NCBI GenBank assembly: GCA_029932385.1
Contig: JAOZQE010000005.1
Span: 1-41,721, forward strand
DNA: 41,721 bases
Direction of reading: 5' to 3'
From: a bacterium
GTDB taxonomy: Bacteria > Desulfobacterota > Anaeroferrophillalia > Anaeroferrophillales > Tharpellaceae
The position numbers and the translations under genes are program-made. This document shows positions 16,064 to 31,227 of the stretch, in pieces. Each line of letters starts with the position of its first letter. Position 1 is the first letter of the stretch. Below the pieces are notes generated by a model. It did not search any database. It was not told the origin of the DNA and worked only from the letters and a program-made list of their open reading frames with translations.

Positions 16064-17038
16064 ATGAAAATCGGCATCACTTCAACAATTCCGGTCGAGA
16101 TTGTTTATGCCGCAGGACATACTCCCTGCGACCTTAACAATATTTTCATCTCGGCCAACAATCCTGAACAGCTTATCCGCCGAGCTGAAAATGCCGGTTT
16201 CCCGCGGACGACCTGTGCCTGGATCAAAGGAATTTACGGAGTTCTTTTAGAAGAGAAAATTGACACAGTAATCATCGTCAGTGGCGGTGATTGTAGCAAC
16301 TCGATCGCTTTGGGAGAAGTTTTAGTCGATGATGGCAAGCACATCATTCCCTTCAGCTACCCTCTGCAACCGGATGTTGCCGAGATGGAGATGGCCATAA
16401 CAAAACTCACGCAGGAACTCGGCGCTGACCCCAGCCGGACCTACAACTGCAAAGAGCAACTTGATCCCATCCGCACAAAACTTGCGGAACTTGACCGGCT
16501 CACCTGGCAGGAGAACCGGGTCACCGGTGCTGAAAATCTGCTGTATCTGGTAAGCTCAAGTGATTTCAATGGTAATCCGAAACAATTTTCCCAGCAACTT
16601 AATCAATTTATCGATCAGGCTTCGGCGAGAGAACCCCTGCAGCGGAAAATCCGCCTCGGCCTGGCCGGAGTTCCACCGATTTTAAGTAATATTTTCAACG
16701 TCATTGATAATCTTGATGCAACCGTCGTTTTTAATGAAGTACCGCGTCAGTTTGCCCTGCCCTGGGCCGCCAGAAGCTCACTTGCGGAACAGTATACTCG
16801 CTACACCTATCCCTATCAGGTCGAGCGCCGCCTCGAAGACATTGAAAAAGCCTGTAAAGAGCGACAGCTTGATGGCCTGATCCACTACACCCAGTCCTTC
16901 TGCTTCCGCCAGATAGAGGATATTCTCTTTAAGCGCAGGCTTAAAATTCCGACCCTGACCCTTGAAGCGGACCAGCCCGGATTAGTCGACGGCCGCACCC
17001 TGACCCGGATTGAGACCTTCATTGAAATGCTGGCCTAG
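16064..17038 (+). CDS. Stand-alone 2-hydroxyacyl-CoA dehydratase D-component-like protein (HgdB/BcrB family)
   Basis: A 324-residue protein of the family that includes 2-hydroxyglutaryl-CoA dehydratase and benzoyl-CoA reductase subunits. Family features: A-A-G-H-T-P-C near residue 20, C51 in T-T-C-A-W-I-K-G, C77 in S-G-G-D-C-S-N and C280 in S-F-C-F-R-Q-I-E, followed by I-P-T-L-T-L-E-A-D. These cysteines are positioned like the [4Fe-4S] ligands. C22, C129 and C264 are also present. No second subunit and no ATP-dependent activator (HgdC type) is adjacent, so it is probably not a classical dehydratase; lone members may do reductive or sulfur-related chemistry. The ATG has only a weak ribosome-binding site. 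Family assignment is firm; the reaction is unknown. Confidence 0.78.
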   Translation: MKIGITSTIPVEIVYAAGHTPCDLNNIFISANNPEQLIRRAENAGFPRTTCAWIKGIYGVLLEEKIDTVIIVSGGDCSNSIALGEVLVDDGKHIIPFSYPLQPDVAEMEMAITKLTQELGADPSRTYNCKEQLDPIRTKLAELDRLTWQENRVTGAENLLYLVSSSDFNGNPKQFSQQLNQFIDQASAREPLQRKIRLGLAGVPPILSNIFNVIDNLDATVVFNEVPRQFALPWAARSSLAEQYTRYTYPYQVERRLEDIEKACKERQLDGLIHYTQSFCFRQIEDILFKRRLKIPTLTLEADQPGLVDGRTLTRIETFIEMLA

Positions 17039-18699: not shown

Positions 18700-20097
18700 T
18701 TATTTACTCTTCCCCGGCAAATCTTTACCGTGATTGACAATGGTCAAATCATGCTGATATGAAAAATCAGGATCGGTATCGTGGTTATGGCAATTGCGGC
18801 AACCCTTTTCGCTGACCGGAGTCATTCTCACCTCAGATGGAGCCTGGGCATGCTTACCTCCGGGACCATGGCACACTTCACACTGCACATTGGCCATCTT
18901 TGCGTTAACCTCCATCGAGACAAAGCCACCGACTGCATTCCTGTTAACCATTCCCGTAACATGACACACCAAACACTCAGGGTCATTTGCCTTGTTCTTT
19001 TTCTCAAGTGTATTAATGGCTCTGGCATGACGGGTTTTCTGCCAATTTTCAACAATTGACTGATGACAACTACCACACCAGTTACTGCCTAAATAGATAT
19101 TCACAGGCTTACGATTTTTCATGATTTTACGTTCTCGACGTTCACGCTTGGCCTTAATAATATCACGACGTTCTTTCCCATATTTCTCCACCAGAGCTTC
19201 CACCTGAGGGTCAGGTGTAACCTTTTCAGACACAACCCGGGTCAATACGGGTTGATCTACACTGAAACCTGCATCCTGACCGGCTCTTACGATATCAATA
19301 TAGGTAATATATTTGCCGCCAAAATTGCTGACAACAACTGGCTTGCCGGCAATAATTCTGGTTTTATTGTCGACCTTACCGGTCTCCCCATCGATAATCA
19401 GATCAGCATCCTTACCACAACCCGTGATAATTTCATGAATACGTTCGCCCTGGGCATGAACAATCAGAATAAAAATATCGTGTTTTATATTATTTTTAAT
19501 TCTGTTTACAGCTTTGATCGGGTCAGAAGCAACCACATCTTTAACCTCGAATAGATCCAGTAATTGTGGATCAATCACTGAAGTAACCAGGACCTTAAGT
19601 TTTCCGGAGTCTTTATTAAAACGTAGAAAAGGGACAAAATCTTCAACATTGGCACAAACCAGATCAGTTGCCGCCCGGTCAGCTACTTTATGAACCGTAT
19701 GCATATCCAACTTTGCATCCCAAGCTCCAAAACCGATAAGATCAAATTTATTGTAATCCATTGCGGCCATAATATACTTGAAATCAGTCTTGGCTAAAAA
19801 AGAATTATAATTCGCAATATTCCCGGCATTGATCATTATCGTCCGATCGAGGTCAGATTGTTGTAAAACTTGGCTAATAACCGTTGTACAGCGGGATAGA
19901 CCTCCCGCCTGATTACCGTGTCAACCACAGGGGGCGATATTGCCCTTGATGCCCCCGTAATAGAGAACTCGTAGCACACCATCGTCAGCCAACGGAGCAA
20001 CATTTGTCTTAAAAGCGGCACTGGCAATGGTTACTGACAGCAACAGAAAACAGCCTACCACTGCGATCTTGAAAAATCTCCATCCACATTTATTCAT
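18700..20097 (-). CDS. Selenocysteine-containing UshA-like/tetrahaem c-type cytochrome fusion
   Basis: One frame runs from the ATG at 20097 to the TAA at 18700, broken only by a TGA at 19921-19923 read here as Sec59; the product is then 465 residues. A signal peptide (cut near A-S-A) is followed by V-L-Y-Y-G-G, then G-N-I-A-P-C-G-U and A-G-G-L-S-R. I recall relatives that read P-C-G-C and G-G-L-A-R-R there. Residues about 40-290 look like a UshA-type metallophosphoesterase fold, but the usual D-x-H, G-D-x-x-D and G-N-H-E metal motifs are degenerate. A basic linker leads to four haem sites: C-G-S-C-H (341-345), C-L-V-C-H (375-379), C-E-V-C-H-G-P-G (from 406) and C-R-N-C-H (433-437), a cytochrome c554-like pattern. 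GGAGA lies 8 nt before the ATG. A standard ORF caller would report only the part after the TGA, from 19836. Confidence 0.88.
19891..19923 (-). promoter_or_regulatory. Bacterial SECIS element with the Sec UGA codon
   Basis: On the minus strand, after TGA (19923-19921), 12 nt lead into a perfect 6-bp stem, GCGGGA/TCCCGC (19908-19903 with 19896-19891), with the loop GGTCTA. From memory, the E. coli fdhF SECIS also starts UGACACGG and carries GGUCU in its apical loop 18 nt after the UGA; both features and the spacing match here. The bulged U of fdhF is not evident. Such elements bind SelB to insert selenocysteine. Confidence 0.85.
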
Positions 20098-20148
20098 AAG
20101 CTAAGTCTCCGAACTATTTTCAAATTATAAAATTGTATCAAAAATTAT

Positions 20149-25088: not shown

Positions 25089-27323
25089 CTACTGATACGT
25101 CTTTTTGACCTCTTCAAGACGGTTAAGGAAAGGACGGCTGACAAACAGCGAGTCCTCTTCCTGGAGAACAACGTGCGGCGTGATAAAGAACATCAACTCA
25201 ACCGAGTGAAACTCATTACCCTCATAACCAACCAGATAGCGCAAGCCGGGAATCCGGCCGAGCCAGGGTACGCCGCTGTAGCCGTTACTCCGGCTCTGCT
25301 GGATGAGGCCACCGATAACAATCGTCTGGCCGTCGGCAACCGAAAGTACGGTCTCGGCCACCCGCTGCGAGAAGATCGGTGAATTGATCCCTTCGATAGT
25401 TTTATTTGAGAGCTGGCTGACCTCCTGATTAATCTCCATCCGCACCATACCGTTATCATTTATATGGGGGGTGACATTCAGGATAATCCCGACGTTACGA
25501 TATTGAATCGTGGTATCGGTGGTCTGAGCGGTCGAACCTGAATCGGTTGTCCGGTAACTTGAGGTTACGGTCGGAACATCCTCACCGACGTCAATTTTGG
25601 CGGTCTCACCATCGGAGGCCAGAATCTGCGGTGCCGAAAGGATATTGACCTTGTTATCCTCAGCCAGGGCCCGGACTATCGCCTTGAATCGAGTTGAATT
25701 ACTGACCAGAAAACTTAAACCGGAACCGACCAAGCTTTTTCCGCTGCCATCGATCAGGCCGAGACCGGAGTCAACCCCGATCAGACCGTTGGCATTGCCG
25801 CCGCCAAGGCCCTTCATCAGATAACTCCACTCGATGCCAAGCTTATTGGTTTCATCAAGCTTGACTTCGGCGATCGTTACTTCAATCAGAACCTGTTTCG
25901 GATAGATATCAAGTTTCTCAATAACCGGTTTGATCTTGCGATAATCATTGCCGGTGGCCCGGACCAGGATCGAGTTGGTTGTATCATCGACGACAAAAGT
26001 AACATCGCCCTCCAGGGTACCACTGACCGCGGCCCCGGGCCGGGCTTTGCGTTTATCTGCGGTGATCCGATTCTGGCGCTGATTATCCAGAATCTGCCGG
26101 CCGAGTGGTCTCGATTTATCTTTATCATCATCTTGAGTTTTTTTCTTCTCGTCGCCCGTGAAAAGACCTTCGAGAACCGCAACAATATCTTTCGCCACAC
26201 CATTTTGAATATAGTGGACAAAGATATCTTCACCCTGAGAATCCTGAGCCAGAATCGGAACCTCGCGATCGAGTTCACCAACCCACTCATCTACCAAAGA
26301 CAAAGATTCGAGATCACGGGAAAGGACAAGAATCATATTGATCCGCGGCAGAGCGAGAAAAGTCAACGAAGAGTTGGGATTACTCCCCTTACCGGCCGCC
26401 AGTCCGTAGGTTCCGGTCAGTTTCTCTAATTCCTTGACCATATCCTCGGCGTTGACATACTTTAAGAGGTAGACCCGTTGCTCAAGTCCGGCAAGCACGC
26501 TGGTATCAAAAAGCAGAAGCAGGCGTGCGACCTTACCTAGAACATGACTATAATCACTGACCAAAAGAATACCGCTTGCCTCATGGACATAGACCTGGGC
26601 TCCCTTACTTAAGTAAGGTTTAATAATGTTAACAAACTGGTCTCCGGGAAGATAACGCAGGCGATAAGCCCGAATAACCCGGCCCCGACTTTTTACCGAC
26701 TCACCCGGCAACAGGAGTTCACCCGCTTCCGCCGCCGCCGGGAGTGAAGCCTGGGGCATGATCTCCCACAACGGGCCGCGTTTAACCATGGCCACGCCGT
26801 TCATGCGTAAAACCCCATTCAATAGGGCCGAGATCTCTTCCCGGTTAAGCTCGGCATTAACCTCTAAGGTAACCTTGCCGCCAACCCCCTGATAGATTGT
26901 ATAGTTCTCTTGCAGAATATCCATAAAGAGACGTATAACTTCTACAAGGTCAGCATCGTCAAAATTCAGGGTAACCATCTCCCGACCCTTGATCTCACCC
27001 TTGATGTGATGGGTTTCCATCCCGGGAGCGGGACTTACCGCCCCGGTGGTAAAGCGTTTCAAACGCTGGTTCAGATCTTGTTCACGAACCTCAAGTTTTT
27101 CAAGCAGGTCATTTTTTTCCGTATCTTCATCTGCAACCTGATCCGATTCTTCCGTTTTCGCCGCGTTGTTCACCTGCGTCGGCGAAGGACGGTCCTTTAA
27201 AAGCCCGCCGGGAGGTAGTGCGTAGTCACTGGCCGTAGGTCGGAGAAAAGTACACGAGGTCAGCAGCAGACCGCTCATCAGAATAAGTAGTAATTGGAAA
27301 AATAATTTATGGTTTGTTCGCAT
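25089..27323 (-). CDS. gspD: T2SS secretin GspD (lipoprotein form)
   Basis: A 744-residue outer-membrane secretin forming the T2SS exit channel. The N-terminus carries a lipobox, L-L-T-S-C (C24), so this secretin is probably lipid-anchored itself. Residues about 115-190 are the N0 domain, then N1 (about 215-290), N2 (about 295-370) and an N3 with an inserted Asp/Lys-rich loop (about 385-490). The secretin core runs from about 500 to 730 and includes V-P-T-V-T-S-S, G-L-I-Q-Q and V-P-W-L-G-R-I-P-G-L. It is the last gene of the gsp operon, 52 nt after the GspC-like gene. No separate pilotin gene is seen. Confidence 0.95.
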   Translation of the reverse strand: MRTNHKLFFQLLLILMSGLLLTSCTFLRPTASDYALPPGGLLKDRPSPTQVNNAAKTEESDQVADEDTEKNDLLEKLEVREQDLNQRLKRFTTGAVSPAPGMETHHIKGEIKGREMVTLNFDDADLVEVIRLFMDILQENYTIYQGVGGKVTLEVNAELNREEISALLNGVLRMNGVAMVKRGPLWEIMPQASLPAAAEAGELLLPGESVKSRGRVIRAYRLRYLPGDQFVNIIKPYLSKGAQVYVHEASGILLVSDYSHVLGKVARLLLLFDTSVLAGLEQRVYLLKYVNAEDMVKELEKLTGTYGLAAGKGSNPNSSLTFLALPRINMILVLSRDLESLSLVDEWVGELDREVPILAQDSQGEDIFVHYIQNGVAKDIVAVLEGLFTGDEKKKTQDDDKDKSRPLGRQILDNQRQNRITADKRKARPGAAVSGTLEGDVTFVVDDTTNSILVRATGNDYRKIKPVIEKLDIYPKQVLIEVTIAEVKLDETNKLGIEWSYLMKGLGGGNANGLIGVDSGLGLIDGSGKSLVGSGLSFLVSNSTRFKAIVRALAEDNKVNILSAPQILASDGETAKIDVGEDVPTVTSSYRTTDSGSTAQTTDTTIQYRNVGIILNVTPHINDNGMVRMEINQEVSQLSNKTIEGINSPIFSQRVAETVLSVADGQTIVIGGLIQQSRSNGYSGVPWLGRIPGLRYLVGYEGNEFHSVELMFFITPHVVLQEEDSLFVSRPFLNRLEEVKKTYQ

Positions 27324-27375
27324 GCAATATCTCCATTCCGCGATTTATTACCAACGCATCAAGGTCAATCATATT

Positions 27376-28230
27376 CTACTTTCGCAACCGCTGATAGACC
27401 GGACCGAAAGGAGTGTTATGTTTTTTTAAGGTTCCCTTATTAACCATAGCTTCTTTTTCTTCAACTGAAAGTTTGCGGATCTGGCGCGAAGTCAAGCCCG
27501 AGGTTTCACTCTTTTTCCCGGCGGATACTCCGGGGGCTGAAACCTTAGCCGTTGAAGTTATAATCTTTGCCGACTTTTGCGGGACGGCCGATTTATCAAC
27601 TCTAATGTTCTTCTTATTGACGGTTTTAACCGGACGGCGGCTCTTATTATCATAGAGATTTACCGTAAACTCCTGGCCCCGTTCATCTTTTATCGTAACT
27701 TTCCGGGCTTCGACCTTAAGTACTTTATAGCTCGGCAGGTTGCGCCGAGGCAGATTGCCGCTATTTTTATCCTGAGCTTCTTCACCTTCAGCAACCAGCA
27801 TCTGCCCTTTTCGAAAACGCTTGAAATGGAGCATTGCTTTTCGGGTCTTACCGGAGATATAGGTTCCATAGAGAACCACATCCCGCCGGGTCGGGGCCGC
27901 AACCGGATCCTGAAACTCAGCTTTTTCCTCGCCCGCTACCGGTCTCGGGGCAGGAGCCTGCCAGGCTTTGCGATCGCTAGAAAAAAGATTTCTATCCGCG
28001 GTTACGGCGTAGCGTGAAACCTCGACTTTCGGCTTATCAAGTTTTGCGGTCAACTCTTTAATAGTCGCCTGAACCGTGGTTCCGGCCACTGCCGCCCCAT
28101 GCTTCTGTGAGGCAACAATCTCGATACCGGAATAACGCTTATATGTATGGCGGTCAAAAACCAGCACCAGTAGCGCTAAAACCAGAAAAAAAAGTGAGAG
28201 TCCGGCCCGGGAGGGAGCCCATTTAATCAT
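27376..28230 (-). CDS. gspC: GspC-like inner-membrane T2SS component
   Basis: A 284-residue protein with a short cytoplasmic N-terminus, one membrane helix (L-S-L-F-F-L-V-L-A-L) and a periplasmic part. Residues about 75-190 hold the homology-region pattern of GspC: D-R-N-L-F-S-S-D, then V-V-L-Y-G-T-Y and a strand pair V-L-K-V-E-A-R-K-V-T-I. This domain contacts secretin N0 in other T2SS. The C-terminal 90 residues are basic and look disordered; no PDZ domain is visible. The position between gspM and gspD supports the assignment. Equivalent proteins in other systems are named GspN/XcpP-like or PilP-like. Confidence 0.7.
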   Translation of the reverse strand: MIKWAPSRAGLSLFFLVLALLVLVFDRHTYKRYSGIEIVASQKHGAAVAGTTVQATIKELTAKLDKPKVEVSRYAVTADRNLFSSDRKAWQAPAPRPVAGEEKAEFQDPVAAPTRRDVVLYGTYISGKTRKAMLHFKRFRKGQMLVAEGEEAQDKNSGNLPRRNLPSYKVLKVEARKVTIKDERGQEFTVNLYDNKSRRPVKTVNKKNIRVDKSAVPQKSAKIITSTAKVSAPGVSAGKKSETSGLTSRQIRKLSVEEKEAMVNKGTLKKHNTPFGPVYQRLRK

Positions 28231-28255
28231 GCTCTTCCTCTAATACCCTTAGAGA

Positions 28256-28822
28256 TTACACGGTAAAAGCGGTAATCACTGCGTTAAAATAGTAAAACCG
28301 CTTCTCCCGGCGGCTGATGGTCTTAACCTCAACCTCATGGAGAAAGATAAATTTTTCATTGTTATTAATCTTAATCAGAAAATCTTTTATCGCTCCGATT
28401 TCAGCCCGACAGCTTAAACGCAGACGCAACATAGTTACCCCCGCCTTTTTGACGGCCGGTAAAAGCTTGGTGGTGCGCACATCGATAGAACTTTCCGAAG
28501 CCAGCTTCTGCAGCAGGTTCTGAAATTCAACCTCAGTTAAAGTCGGGGTCTCTCCTTGAATAAGTTTACGGCTTTTCACCTCCTGGTCGAATTTCTGCAA
28601 AGCCTTATCGAGGGCGGCAAACTCCTGCTGCCGAGCCACCAAGCGGCTGAATTTCGCAAACTGCAGCTCTTTTAAGGCAATATCATCATCTAAAGCCTGA
28701 CTCCGGGACTGATAAAACCCCAATCCGGCCCGGCCGATGACCAGAACCAGCAGAACTCCGACCACCGCCAGCAGAATCTCACGCCGTTTAAACAACTCGA
28801 TATAATAGTCTAATTTTTTCAT
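28256..28822 (-). CDS. gspM: T2SS inner-membrane protein GspM (PilO-like)
   Basis: A 188-residue bitopic protein: a short cytoplasmic start, a membrane helix at about 15-37 (L-L-A-V-V-G-V-L-L-V-L-V-I), a coiled coil at about 40-80 and a ferredoxin-like periplasmic domain ending Y-Y-F-N-A-V-I-T-A-F. That is the GspM/PilO layout. It pairs with GspL in the inner-membrane platform. It lies 65 nt after gspL and 25 nt before the gspC-like gene. Sequence conservation in this family is low, so gene order carries much of the weight. Confidence 0.82.
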   Translation of the reverse strand: MKKLDYYIELFKRREILLAVVGVLLVLVIGRAGLGFYQSRSQALDDDIALKELQFAKFSRLVARQQEFAALDKALQKFDQEVKSRKLIQGETPTLTEVEFQNLLQKLASESSIDVRTTKLLPAVKKAGVTMLRLRLSCRAEIGAIKDFLIKINNNEKFIFLHEVEVKTISRREKRFYYFNAVITAFTV

Positions 28823-28887
28823 TTCACAAAAGAAATTAAAAGATTCTCAATGGCTTGCCGGCTTAAGCCGGCAGCTTCTTACCCGGG

Positions 28888-30171
28888 TTATTCAAGATCA
28901 ACAATAATCTTGAAGGTTTCGCGATCCCCTTTTTTCACCACCGGCGAATCGAAATGAACTTCCTTGAAAAGGGGTGAGTCTTCCAGAGCTTTTACCACGG
29001 TTGTCGCTGAAGAGGAAGTTCCGCTTAAATGAACCTTACGCCCTCTGATAGCTAATGAACGTAACCAGGTATCCTGCGGGATTAACTCAGTCAACTCTTT
29101 CAAGAGATCGATCGTCACAGATTGTTCATGCACCTGCTCCGAAAGGTTTTCAAAGTGTTCGATAAGCGCTTGATTCTGTTTCCTGATGCCGCTTAGTTTC
29201 TCCGCCTCCTGCCGCACAACCGCAAGTTTTTTCTCAAGCTTGTGCAGATGCCGCTGTTTACCGACAATCACGGCCAGAGGCTGCCCGATGATGGCCGCCA
29301 CCAGAAAGATAGCGGCCGCCACTTCCAACTTGAACCAGAGCCGCCGGCGCCGCAGAACATCCGGTGAGATCAGATCAATACTATAGGGAAAAGCACTCCA
29401 TTCGAGACGGAGATTTTCAGGTAACTGATCAAGTTCACTCAGTTCCAGGGCTGGACGTAGCTCCTGCAGACCGGCCCGCAGATCCCCCGCCATCGACCAG
29501 AGAAAAGCCTGCTTGAAACTTAGACCTCGATTCTCGGCCAAGGGTAAATTGTGAGCCAGAAAACTGCTGCTCTCACTCTCTTCAACAACGCCTTCACGGG
29601 CTTTAAAGGTCACGGTCTGGCCATCAAATAGAACCATCTCCCGATGGCCCGCATCACCGCCAAGATAGAGTCCCGGCACGTGCACCATCCAGGCGACAAA
29701 AAAGAGACCGGGGAAAACCGCAGAAAGATTGAAACCGGCTGCGGTAAAAATAGCAATATACTCATCAATCCGGGTTTTCGGCGCTAACGTGACCCTGACC
29801 GCCAGACGGCCATCCTCCTCTTGGCAACGATAACGCCAGTGAAGTCCTTTAATATCATGGGGGACATGGCGCATCAGTTCATAGCCGACGGCATCTTCAA
29901 GATTCTCCGCCGCCGCCAGGGGCAGAGTAAAATGAACTACGGTAAAAATATCAAGCGGCAGCCCTAAAAGCAACAGGTCATCAAGCTGCGGCGGACAATC
30001 ATTTTTAAAGGCCGCCACCGCATGCTTAAACTCTTTCGGAGTAGTGTACGCATACTCTTTGCGCTCAAATACCTTGTCCCGGCCATTCAACCCGCGCCGC
30101 AACCGGAGAAAGAGCAGACGCTCTCTTTCCACCAGCAAAAGCTTAGTTTCCGGTAACCAGGGTAGATTCAT
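28888..30171 (-). CDS. gspL: T2SS inner-membrane protein GspL
   Basis: A 427-residue protein. Residues 1-255 form the cytoplasmic actin-like (PilM-type) domain that recruits GspE. A membrane helix lies at about 280-302 (A-A-A-I-F-L-V-A-A-I-I-G), then a coiled coil and a PilN/GspL-type periplasmic domain with L-I-P-Q-D-T-W-L-R-S-L. The domain order is normal. GspL links ATPase action to the pseudopilus platform. The ATG is 117 nt after the gspK stop, the largest gap in the gsp operon; I saw no convincing promoter or terminator in it. Confidence 0.88.
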   Translation of the reverse strand: MNLPWLPETKLLLVERERLLFLRLRRGLNGRDKVFERKEYAYTTPKEFKHAVAAFKNDCPPQLDDLLLLGLPLDIFTVVHFTLPLAAAENLEDAVGYELMRHVPHDIKGLHWRYRCQEEDGRLAVRVTLAPKTRIDEYIAIFTAAGFNLSAVFPGLFFVAWMVHVPGLYLGGDAGHREMVLFDGQTVTFKAREGVVEESESSSFLAHNLPLAENRGLSFKQAFLWSMAGDLRAGLQELRPALELSELDQLPENLRLEWSAFPYSIDLISPDVLRRRRLWFKLEVAAAIFLVAAIIGQPLAVIVGKQRHLHKLEKKLAVVRQEAEKLSGIRKQNQALIEHFENLSEQVHEQSVTIDLLKELTELIPQDTWLRSLAIRGRKVHLSGTSSSATTVVKALEDSPLFKEVHFDSPVVKKGDRETFKIIVDLE

Positions 30172-30288
30172 AAAAAAACAGGCCCTTCCTGTGCGTTATA
30201 TTAATGATAGTAGTTTACTGAAAATTCGGGGCCTGACCTGTGACTTGCAAGCATCAGACCGCAACCGACAACAAACAGAGTCAAAAAT

Positions 30289-31227
30289 CTATTTTTTCTT
30301 ATTGACTGCGAAAACCTGCCGGTACCAGCTGCCGCCGGCACCGATCGTTCCCGCCTCACTCGCACTGATAGTTACATAATCAGTATCGACCACGGTAAAA
30401 TATTGATTCAAGAGACTGAAAGATTCGGGTGCTATCAACTCACTTAATTCAGCTAATTTAAATATCGGCTTTGCAGCCCGATAAGTGACAACTTCGCTTA
30501 TCACCTCTGGAGGAAGATCATCAATCAGGGTCAACGCCTGCGGGGCGCAACTGTTGATATCCAAGCGTTTCTCCTCCCCGTAGGGTGAAAGCAGATCCAC
30601 CAGACCGGGCCGACTCCCGCTACCAACATAGATATCGTAGGTTATCCCTTTAATCAACAGCAGTTCGTTTACTACATCAATCTTCCGGTTCTTGCAACCA
30701 TAATCAAGGCCCTGCTCTTCGTAATAGTCAGCCTCAGCCCCATTCAGCCGGTGTAAAGAATCTTTATCCGTCCAATCCAGAACCGAATCAATGATACCAT
30801 CACGGGCCTCCTCATCAACCACACCGCAGACCGTGACAATTTTTCGCCAACGGTCGATTTTCAGCTCATCAAGCCTGAATTTACCGGCCTCCGTGGCAAT
30901 TTTAATCTTGACTTTTACGCCTTCGATCTCCCACTCCCAGGGCTCGTAGCGAGGATACCAGAGCTCCAATGGAGCCCCGGAAAGCTCTTCAATCTCATCC
31001 TTTTTTGCCAGCAGGGAACGGTTCGCCCGGTATTTCAGGTACTCATGATATCCCTTGGCAACAGCGGACTGCAAAAGATAGTCGCGCTCAGCCCCGAGGC
31101 GGCGATTGCGAGCCGCCTCGGCATTAAGCCGGGCCGTGGTCGCGTAATTCAGCGCCAGAATACCTAACAGCAGGGATATCCAGAATACCGCCAGCAGGGC
31201 AAAACCCCGATTATTGTCTGACACCAT
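30289..31227 (-). CDS. gspK: Minor pseudopilin GspK
   Basis: A 312-residue minor pseudopilin. The prepilin site is N-N-R-G^F-A-L-L-A-V-F-W after an 8-residue leader; like other GspK proteins it lacks the Glu at +5. The large alpha domain of GspK is evident, with D-W-T-D-K-D-S-L-H-R-L-N-G-A-E and V-V-N-E-L-L-L-I-K-G-I, then a helix-hairpin-helix-like L-D-I-N-S-C-A-P-Q-A-L-T-L-I. GspK caps the pseudopilus tip with GspI and GspJ. Start and stop overlap with gspJ (TAATG). Confidence 0.92.
   Translation of the reverse strand: MVSDNNRGFALLAVFWISLLLGILALNYATTARLNAEAARNRRLGAERDYLLQSAVAKGYHEYLKYRANRSLLAKKDEIEELSGAPLELWYPRYEPWEWEIEGVKVKIKIATEAGKFRLDELKIDRWRKIVTVCGVVDEEARDGIIDSVLDWTDKDSLHRLNGAEADYYEEQGLDYGCKNRKIDVVNELLLIKGITYDIYVGSGSRPGLVDLLSPYGEEKRLDINSCAPQALTLIDDLPPEVISEVVTYRAAKPIFKLAELSELIAPESFSLLNQYFTVVDTDYVTISASEAGTIGAGGSWYRQVFAVNKKK

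Follow-up and report, generated by a model that had tools for sequence, protein, structure and literature searches.

UshA-like selenoproteins with a CxU motif form a family that is already known. "UshA-like protein, CxU" has stood on lists of selenoprotein families since 2008, the designation "UshA-like, COG0737, CxU" is used in published lists (PMC2398784, PMC9312934, PMC13188914), and NCBIfam holds a model for the family, NF041198 (UshA_like_PCGU, "UshA-like (seleno)protein"); an initial annotation of the locus described here had hinted that the family was absent from the standard lists, which is not the case. We found no assigned function for the family. The protein studied here is a divergent relative, encoded on a 41,721-nucleotide stretch of DNA (the window) from the uncultured lineage Candidatus Tharpella. 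It shares with NF041198 proteins the domain order, the PCGU motif, the GGLxR segment and four CxxCH motifs, and NF041198 is its best family match, yet it scores 185.4 bits against a cut-off of 275, with the best-matching stretch in the C-terminal half. Since 185 bits falls short of the cut-off, curated annotation would not name this protein, and we therefore file it under the broad UshA-like CxU kind, outside the NF041198 equivalog. That placement agrees with its UshA/COG0737-type domain, the in-frame UGA giving C-x-U, the aligned Cys homologues, the bSECIS element and the selenocysteine (Sec) machinery described below. Two other described families are more distant. UshA-like selenoprotein family 2 (NF049981) also combines a UshA-like domain with Sec, but the window protein reaches only 22.5 bits against 140 and carries CxU rather than the listed CxxU, and ExtKL (NF040886), likewise a multihaem cytochrome and selenoprotein, is matched at 19 bits against 250.

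The gene is a 465-codon frame on the minus strand (18703–20097), running from an ATG at 20097 to a TAA at 18702–18700, in which codon 59 is the sole in-frame TGA (Table 1). Reading the sequence confirmed the elements that had been described for it: a single frame with an ATG and a ribosome-binding site, a leader, P-C-G followed by TGA (19921–19923), G-G-L-S-R and four CxxCH motifs. The context of the TGA is YYGGIKGNIAPCG-U-HGNQAGGLSR, that is, P-C-G-U and then H-G-N-Q-A-G-G-L-S-R. Standard table-11 gene calling shortens the protein; table 11 yields just a 378-aa ORF (18700–19836), which lacks the leader as well as the PCGU site, and the curated model NF041198 misses the subfamily. Orthologues in other genomes of the genus are 74, 72 and 57% identical and keep both the frame and the TGA. 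Because the TGA recurs in these genomes, it is neither a chance event nor the sequencing error that the initial annotation had asked about. In the comparison of orthologues, 27/58 of codons 1–58 differ at position 3 and 6/58 at position 2; after the TGA the corresponding figures are 180/406 and 49/406. Since third codon positions hold most of the differences on both sides of the TGA, both halves are under protein-level selection.

Table 1. Features of the selenoprotein gene and its conserved neighbours, in window coordinates.
Feature	Position	Strand	Description
Cys-rich exported protein, 416 aa	23312..24562	-	Conserved cluster member by synteny; no Pfam match
Likely lipoprotein, 153 aa	22575..23036	-	LFTAC lipobox by eye; conserved cluster member by synteny
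Exported protein, 809 aa	20149..22578	-	TGase_elicitor (transglutaminase-like, PF16683) match; conserved upstream partner (Pfam, synteny)
Likely ribosome-binding site GGAG	20107..20110	-	9 nt 5' of the ATG; read in sequence
Selenoprotein gene	18700..20097	-	465 aa, then TAA; leader, C57-G-Sec59 within a UshA-like domain, then a tetrahaem (c554-type) domain at the C terminus
Signal peptide, residues 1 to about 27	20017..20097	-	Hydrophobic leader MNKCGWRFFKIAVVGCFLLLSVTIASA by sequence; helix 3-26 in the model
UshA-like (metallophosphoesterase-fold) domain, residues ~40-325	19123..19980	-	Foldseek to 3ivd, 2ush and CD73; profile match to 5'-nucleotidases and SoxB; most metal ligands lost
Cys57, invariant partner of Sec59	19927..19929	-	Alignment of 42 sequences
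In-frame TGA, codon 59, predicted selenocysteine	19921..19923	-	TGA in 76 relatives, Cys in ~47
bSECIS-like hairpin	19890..19909	-	7-bp stem GGCGGGA/TCCCGCT; apical loop GGTCTA at 19897-19902; 18 nt past the TGA
Haem motif 1, C341-xx-C344-H345	19063..19077	-	Residues 341-345; invariant in 42 sequences
Haem motif 2, C375-xx-C378-H379	18961..18975	-	Residues 375-379; invariant in 42 sequences
Haem motif 3, C406-xx-C409-H410	18868..18882	-	Residues 406-410; invariant in 42 sequences
Haem motif 4, C433-xx-C436-H437	18787..18801	-	Residues 433-437; invariant in 42 sequences
Protein with leader, 233 aa	17998..18699	-	Follows the Sec gene directly; partner conserved at genus, family and order level (synteny); no Pfam match

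Querying genome contigs with an alignment recovered more than 500 relatives; a scan of the contigs with the single protein found none. Among relatives that contain the whole fusion, residue 59 is encoded by TGA in 77 (the window gene counted) and by TGC or TGT in about 47, in a collection that was chosen by its CG[C/U] motif and so favours Sec or Cys at the site. When patterns left residue 59 free, the haem-bearing frames showed only TGA, TGC and TGT. Sec forms occur in Desulfobacterota, Krumholzibacteriota, Eiseniibacteriota, Gemmatimonadota, Acidobacteriota and others, and Cys forms in Nitrospinota, Nitrospirota, Planctomycetota and Gammaproteobacteria. The family tree needs at least five changes between Sec and Cys, two of them forced by well-supported branches; one apparent Cys row (L140) was a chance motif match and was kept out of the tree. 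Comparison thus supports the original proposal that the TGA takes the place of a conserved Cys, the sign of a selenoprotein: relatives have Cys or TGA at residue 59, the machinery is present and the TGA is not a read error. Judged from the sequences, UGA59 is almost certainly read as selenocysteine.

The N-terminal domain was compared with known structures by model and by profile. The AlphaFold2 model of the window protein (mean pLDDT 89) retrieved 5'-nucleotidases in Foldseek (E values down to 4e-21), showing a fold shared with UshA and CD73. In the PDB, a profile of 42 relatives matched SoxB, cytochrome c554 and 5'-nucleotidases, the last with E values down to 1e-31; the window protein alone, searched against the same database, hit just haem proteins and, weakly, thioredoxins. 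The fold is also that of the thiosulfohydrolase SoxB, to which the profile match is weak (E 4.7e-9), and with the SoxB model TIGR04486, whose cut-off is 550 bits, the protein scores 35. As alignment reference we used the E. coli UshA sequence with ligands that we take to be D41, H43, D84, N116, H117, H217, H252 and Q254. The window protein has G, K, N, A, W, H, E and G at these positions, so that 7 of the 8 checked residues of the dimetal site are replaced and only H217 is kept. Across the family N116 and H117 are gone almost throughout, and D41, D84, H217 or H252 are kept by some relatives. The residues invariant in 42 sequences are instead C57, residue 59 (Sec or Cys), G65-G66, all haem Cys and His, H357 and H416, with C57 and Sec59 located in a loop just past the first lost UshA ligands. 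Unlike UshA and CD73, the window protein has lost most metal ligands and gained a CGU motif, and a cytochrome replaces the C-terminal nucleotidase domain. To the known family the present analysis adds this almost complete loss of the UshA ligands, set against an invariant C57/Sec59, together with the UshA-like fold and a cluster of exported proteins conserved at the level of the order.

These results suggest that the protein is probably an exported, periplasmic selenoprotein in which a bSECIS-directed Sec59 lies in a UshA fold stripped of its phosphatase site and forms a CxU redox centre served by four-haem electron transfer. By comparison, UGA59 is decoded as Sec through the downstream bSECIS hairpin by SelA, SelB, SelD and tRNA-Sec, and the protein would be exported to the periplasm (or otherwise exported). 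There Cys57 and Sec59 would form a working redox centre of the dithiol/selenenylsulfide type, a CxU as listed for the family, that may reduce or oxidise a small periplasmic substrate or a disulfide, and the four haems would shuttle electrons to or from this centre, with the respiratory chain or an external acceptor at the other end. In its most likely role the protein would be a thiol/selenol redox enzyme of the periplasm that trades electrons with its own four haems. The initial annotation had left open whether C57 and Sec59 act as a redox pair or as a metal ligand beside the cytochrome; redox chemistry is the likelier of the two, and a metal-binding role is possible. Under the latter, the UshA pocket would have been rebuilt as a soft-metal site (e.g. 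for Fe, Zn, Cu or Hg) with Sec59 and Cys57 as ligands. This agrees with the position of the CGU motif at the old metal site and with the retention of H217 in the window protein and most relatives, and of D41, D84 or H252 in many relatives. However, no invariant His or Asp accompanies C57 and Sec59 in the UshA domain, and exchange between Sec and Cys is typical of redox sites, so we regard a metal site as unlikely. Less likely again is an active phosphoesterase, either a nucleotidase or a SoxB-like hydrolase, to which Sec would be accessory: the clear similarity in fold and profile to UshA, CD73 and SoxB, and the weak match to the SoxB model, would fit such an enzyme, but the replacement of 7 of the 8 active-site residues in the window protein and the loss of N116 and H117 almost family-wide argue against it.

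The cytochrome that would serve the Cys57-Sec59 redox centre matches the cytochrome c554 domain of Pfam (PF13435) at 58.8 bits, against a gathering cut-off of 20.8. Like Nitrosomonas cytochrome c554 (1bvb) it is tetrahaem, but here the domain is fused behind a UshA-like domain and belongs to a selenoprotein. The Pfam and NF041198 matches, the PDB profile search and Foldseek all bear out the fusion architecture first proposed for the gene. The invariant H357 and H416 are probably distal haem ligands. Two single-domain relatives, one with Sec (CGU, L031) and one with Cys (CGC, L033), have no haems. Because such haem-free forms exist, the cytochrome part is an optional module and the redox centre would not need a fused cytochrome; in all probability the CxU domain is able to work with different electron partners as well.

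We next consider the signal for Sec insertion. The published bSECIS model specifies a loop of 3–9 nt, a stem of 4–16 bp, a G in the first two loop positions, a spacing of 16–37 nt and a minimum free energy (MFE) of at most -7.5 (PMC13188914). The window hairpin, with a 6-nt loop starting GG and an MFE of about -15 kcal/mol, falls within these constraints. In E. coli fdhF (from the E. coli collection), GGUCU lies at the same distance from the UGA as in the window gene, and the five bases that directly follow the UGA, CACGG, are also identical. When codons were redrawn synonymously from each gene in 300 rounds, GGTCT appeared in a mean of 11.5 and a maximum of 19 genes, against 57 of the 76 Sec genes observed. 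Stem pairing in the same 76 genes averaged 5.63 of 7 pairs, against 3.92 in the shuffles (maximum 4.16 of 300), and the stem changes in pairs, with G-C/T-A at one pair and C-G/A-T at another. At the equivalent place the Cys genes averaged 3.3 stem pairs, and GGTCT was found in 0 of 48, a set that includes the chance match L140. Taken alone, the window hairpin has a folding energy only 2 standard deviations below its own synonymous null. On these comparisons, the SECIS signal is a family-wide one, its GGTCT loop and stem being conserved well beyond synonymous-codon expectation.

The genome that holds the window (G000; 2.35 Mb, 90% complete) encodes SelA (588 bits), SelB (401 bits) and SelD (373 bits), each above its curated cut-off, as well as a tRNA-Sec with anticodon UCA; the complete Sec machinery, for which the initial annotation had proposed a search, is therefore present. 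The SelD gene (G000:C99, L205:1255-2436, minus strand) has a TGA at the active-site Cys/Sec position (...AAAGUAAKIGP...) and a second TGA as its normal stop; because of the first, SelD itself is a selenoprotein. That TGA59 is a real stop, either in a decayed gene or between two products, the second starting from the ATG at 19836, is highly improbable. The 378-aa ORF does remain open downstream of the TGA, but its product would have no signal peptide, which is required for haem c attachment, and the identical TGA in 76 relatives, the synonymous-biased divergence on both sides and the SECIS constraint all oppose it. Genome-wide reassignment of TGA, e.g. to Trp or Gly, has a negligible probability: nothing but the in-frame TGA itself points to it, the genome has tRNA-Sec and the full machinery, the SelD gene and that of a paralogue (C52) terminate at TGA, and relatives carry Cys at this site, not Trp or Gly. 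A real stop, a pseudogene, a sequencing error and genome-wide reassignment were thus all rejected on the strength of the TGA in orthologues, the codon bias, the SECIS element and the machinery.

The same genome encodes three UshA-like tetrahaem CxU paralogues that belong to different subfamilies, and each of the three sets is found again elsewhere in the genus and order. Besides the window protein, there is one with LCGU (G000:C52:17340-18677, L002; 191 bits to NF041198) and one with PCGU (G000:C78:128-1591, L003) that passes NF041198 at 357 bits; in the tree, the window protein and the C52 paralogue represent subfamilies that branch separately. A further genome of the genus (G010) has two window-type copies (G010:C207 and G010:C339; L060 and L100), both 72% identical to the window protein. 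The family thus reaches up to three copies per genome and displays a clear active-site swap, with the phosphatase ligands out and C-x-U in. In the description of Candidatus Tharpella (Tharpellota), which used Prodigal gene calls and a CxxCH screen, neither sulfate reduction nor a common terminal reductase was reported (PMC9213671). It is a guess, and a rather doubtful one, that the three sets of tetrahaem CxU selenoproteins in Candidatus Tharpella and its order, all truncated by standard gene calling, might be the missing periplasmic terminal reductase or a part of it, with a thiol/selenol catalytic site that sits in a defunct phosphatase pocket and is connected to the protein's own haems. They are overlooked and testable candidates for filling this gap.

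Around the window gene, a five-gene cluster (encoding the 416-aa, 153-aa, 809-aa, Sec and 233-aa proteins; Table 1) is kept throughout the genus, and parts of it also at family and order level. Neighbourhoods across the wider family were also compared and had no common partner gene and none hinting at a substrate; they contained only lineage-specific housekeeping or envelope genes (S41 protease, LptD, O-antigen ligase, signal peptidase, UvrA and SecA). By eye, the 416-aa protein resembles, in its C-terminal part, a stretch of the 809-aa protein (WWTGxxxxN...), perhaps a common surface module. Upstream of the cluster and on the same strand lie type II secretion genes for GspD, GspM, a PilN/GspL-like protein and GspK (25089–31227), and a GspD gene also adjoins the cluster in two more genomes of the genus (L108 and L110). 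Elsewhere in the window, positions 16064–17038 encode a protein resembling the 2-hydroxyglutaryl-CoA dehydratase D-component or a double-cubane reductase.
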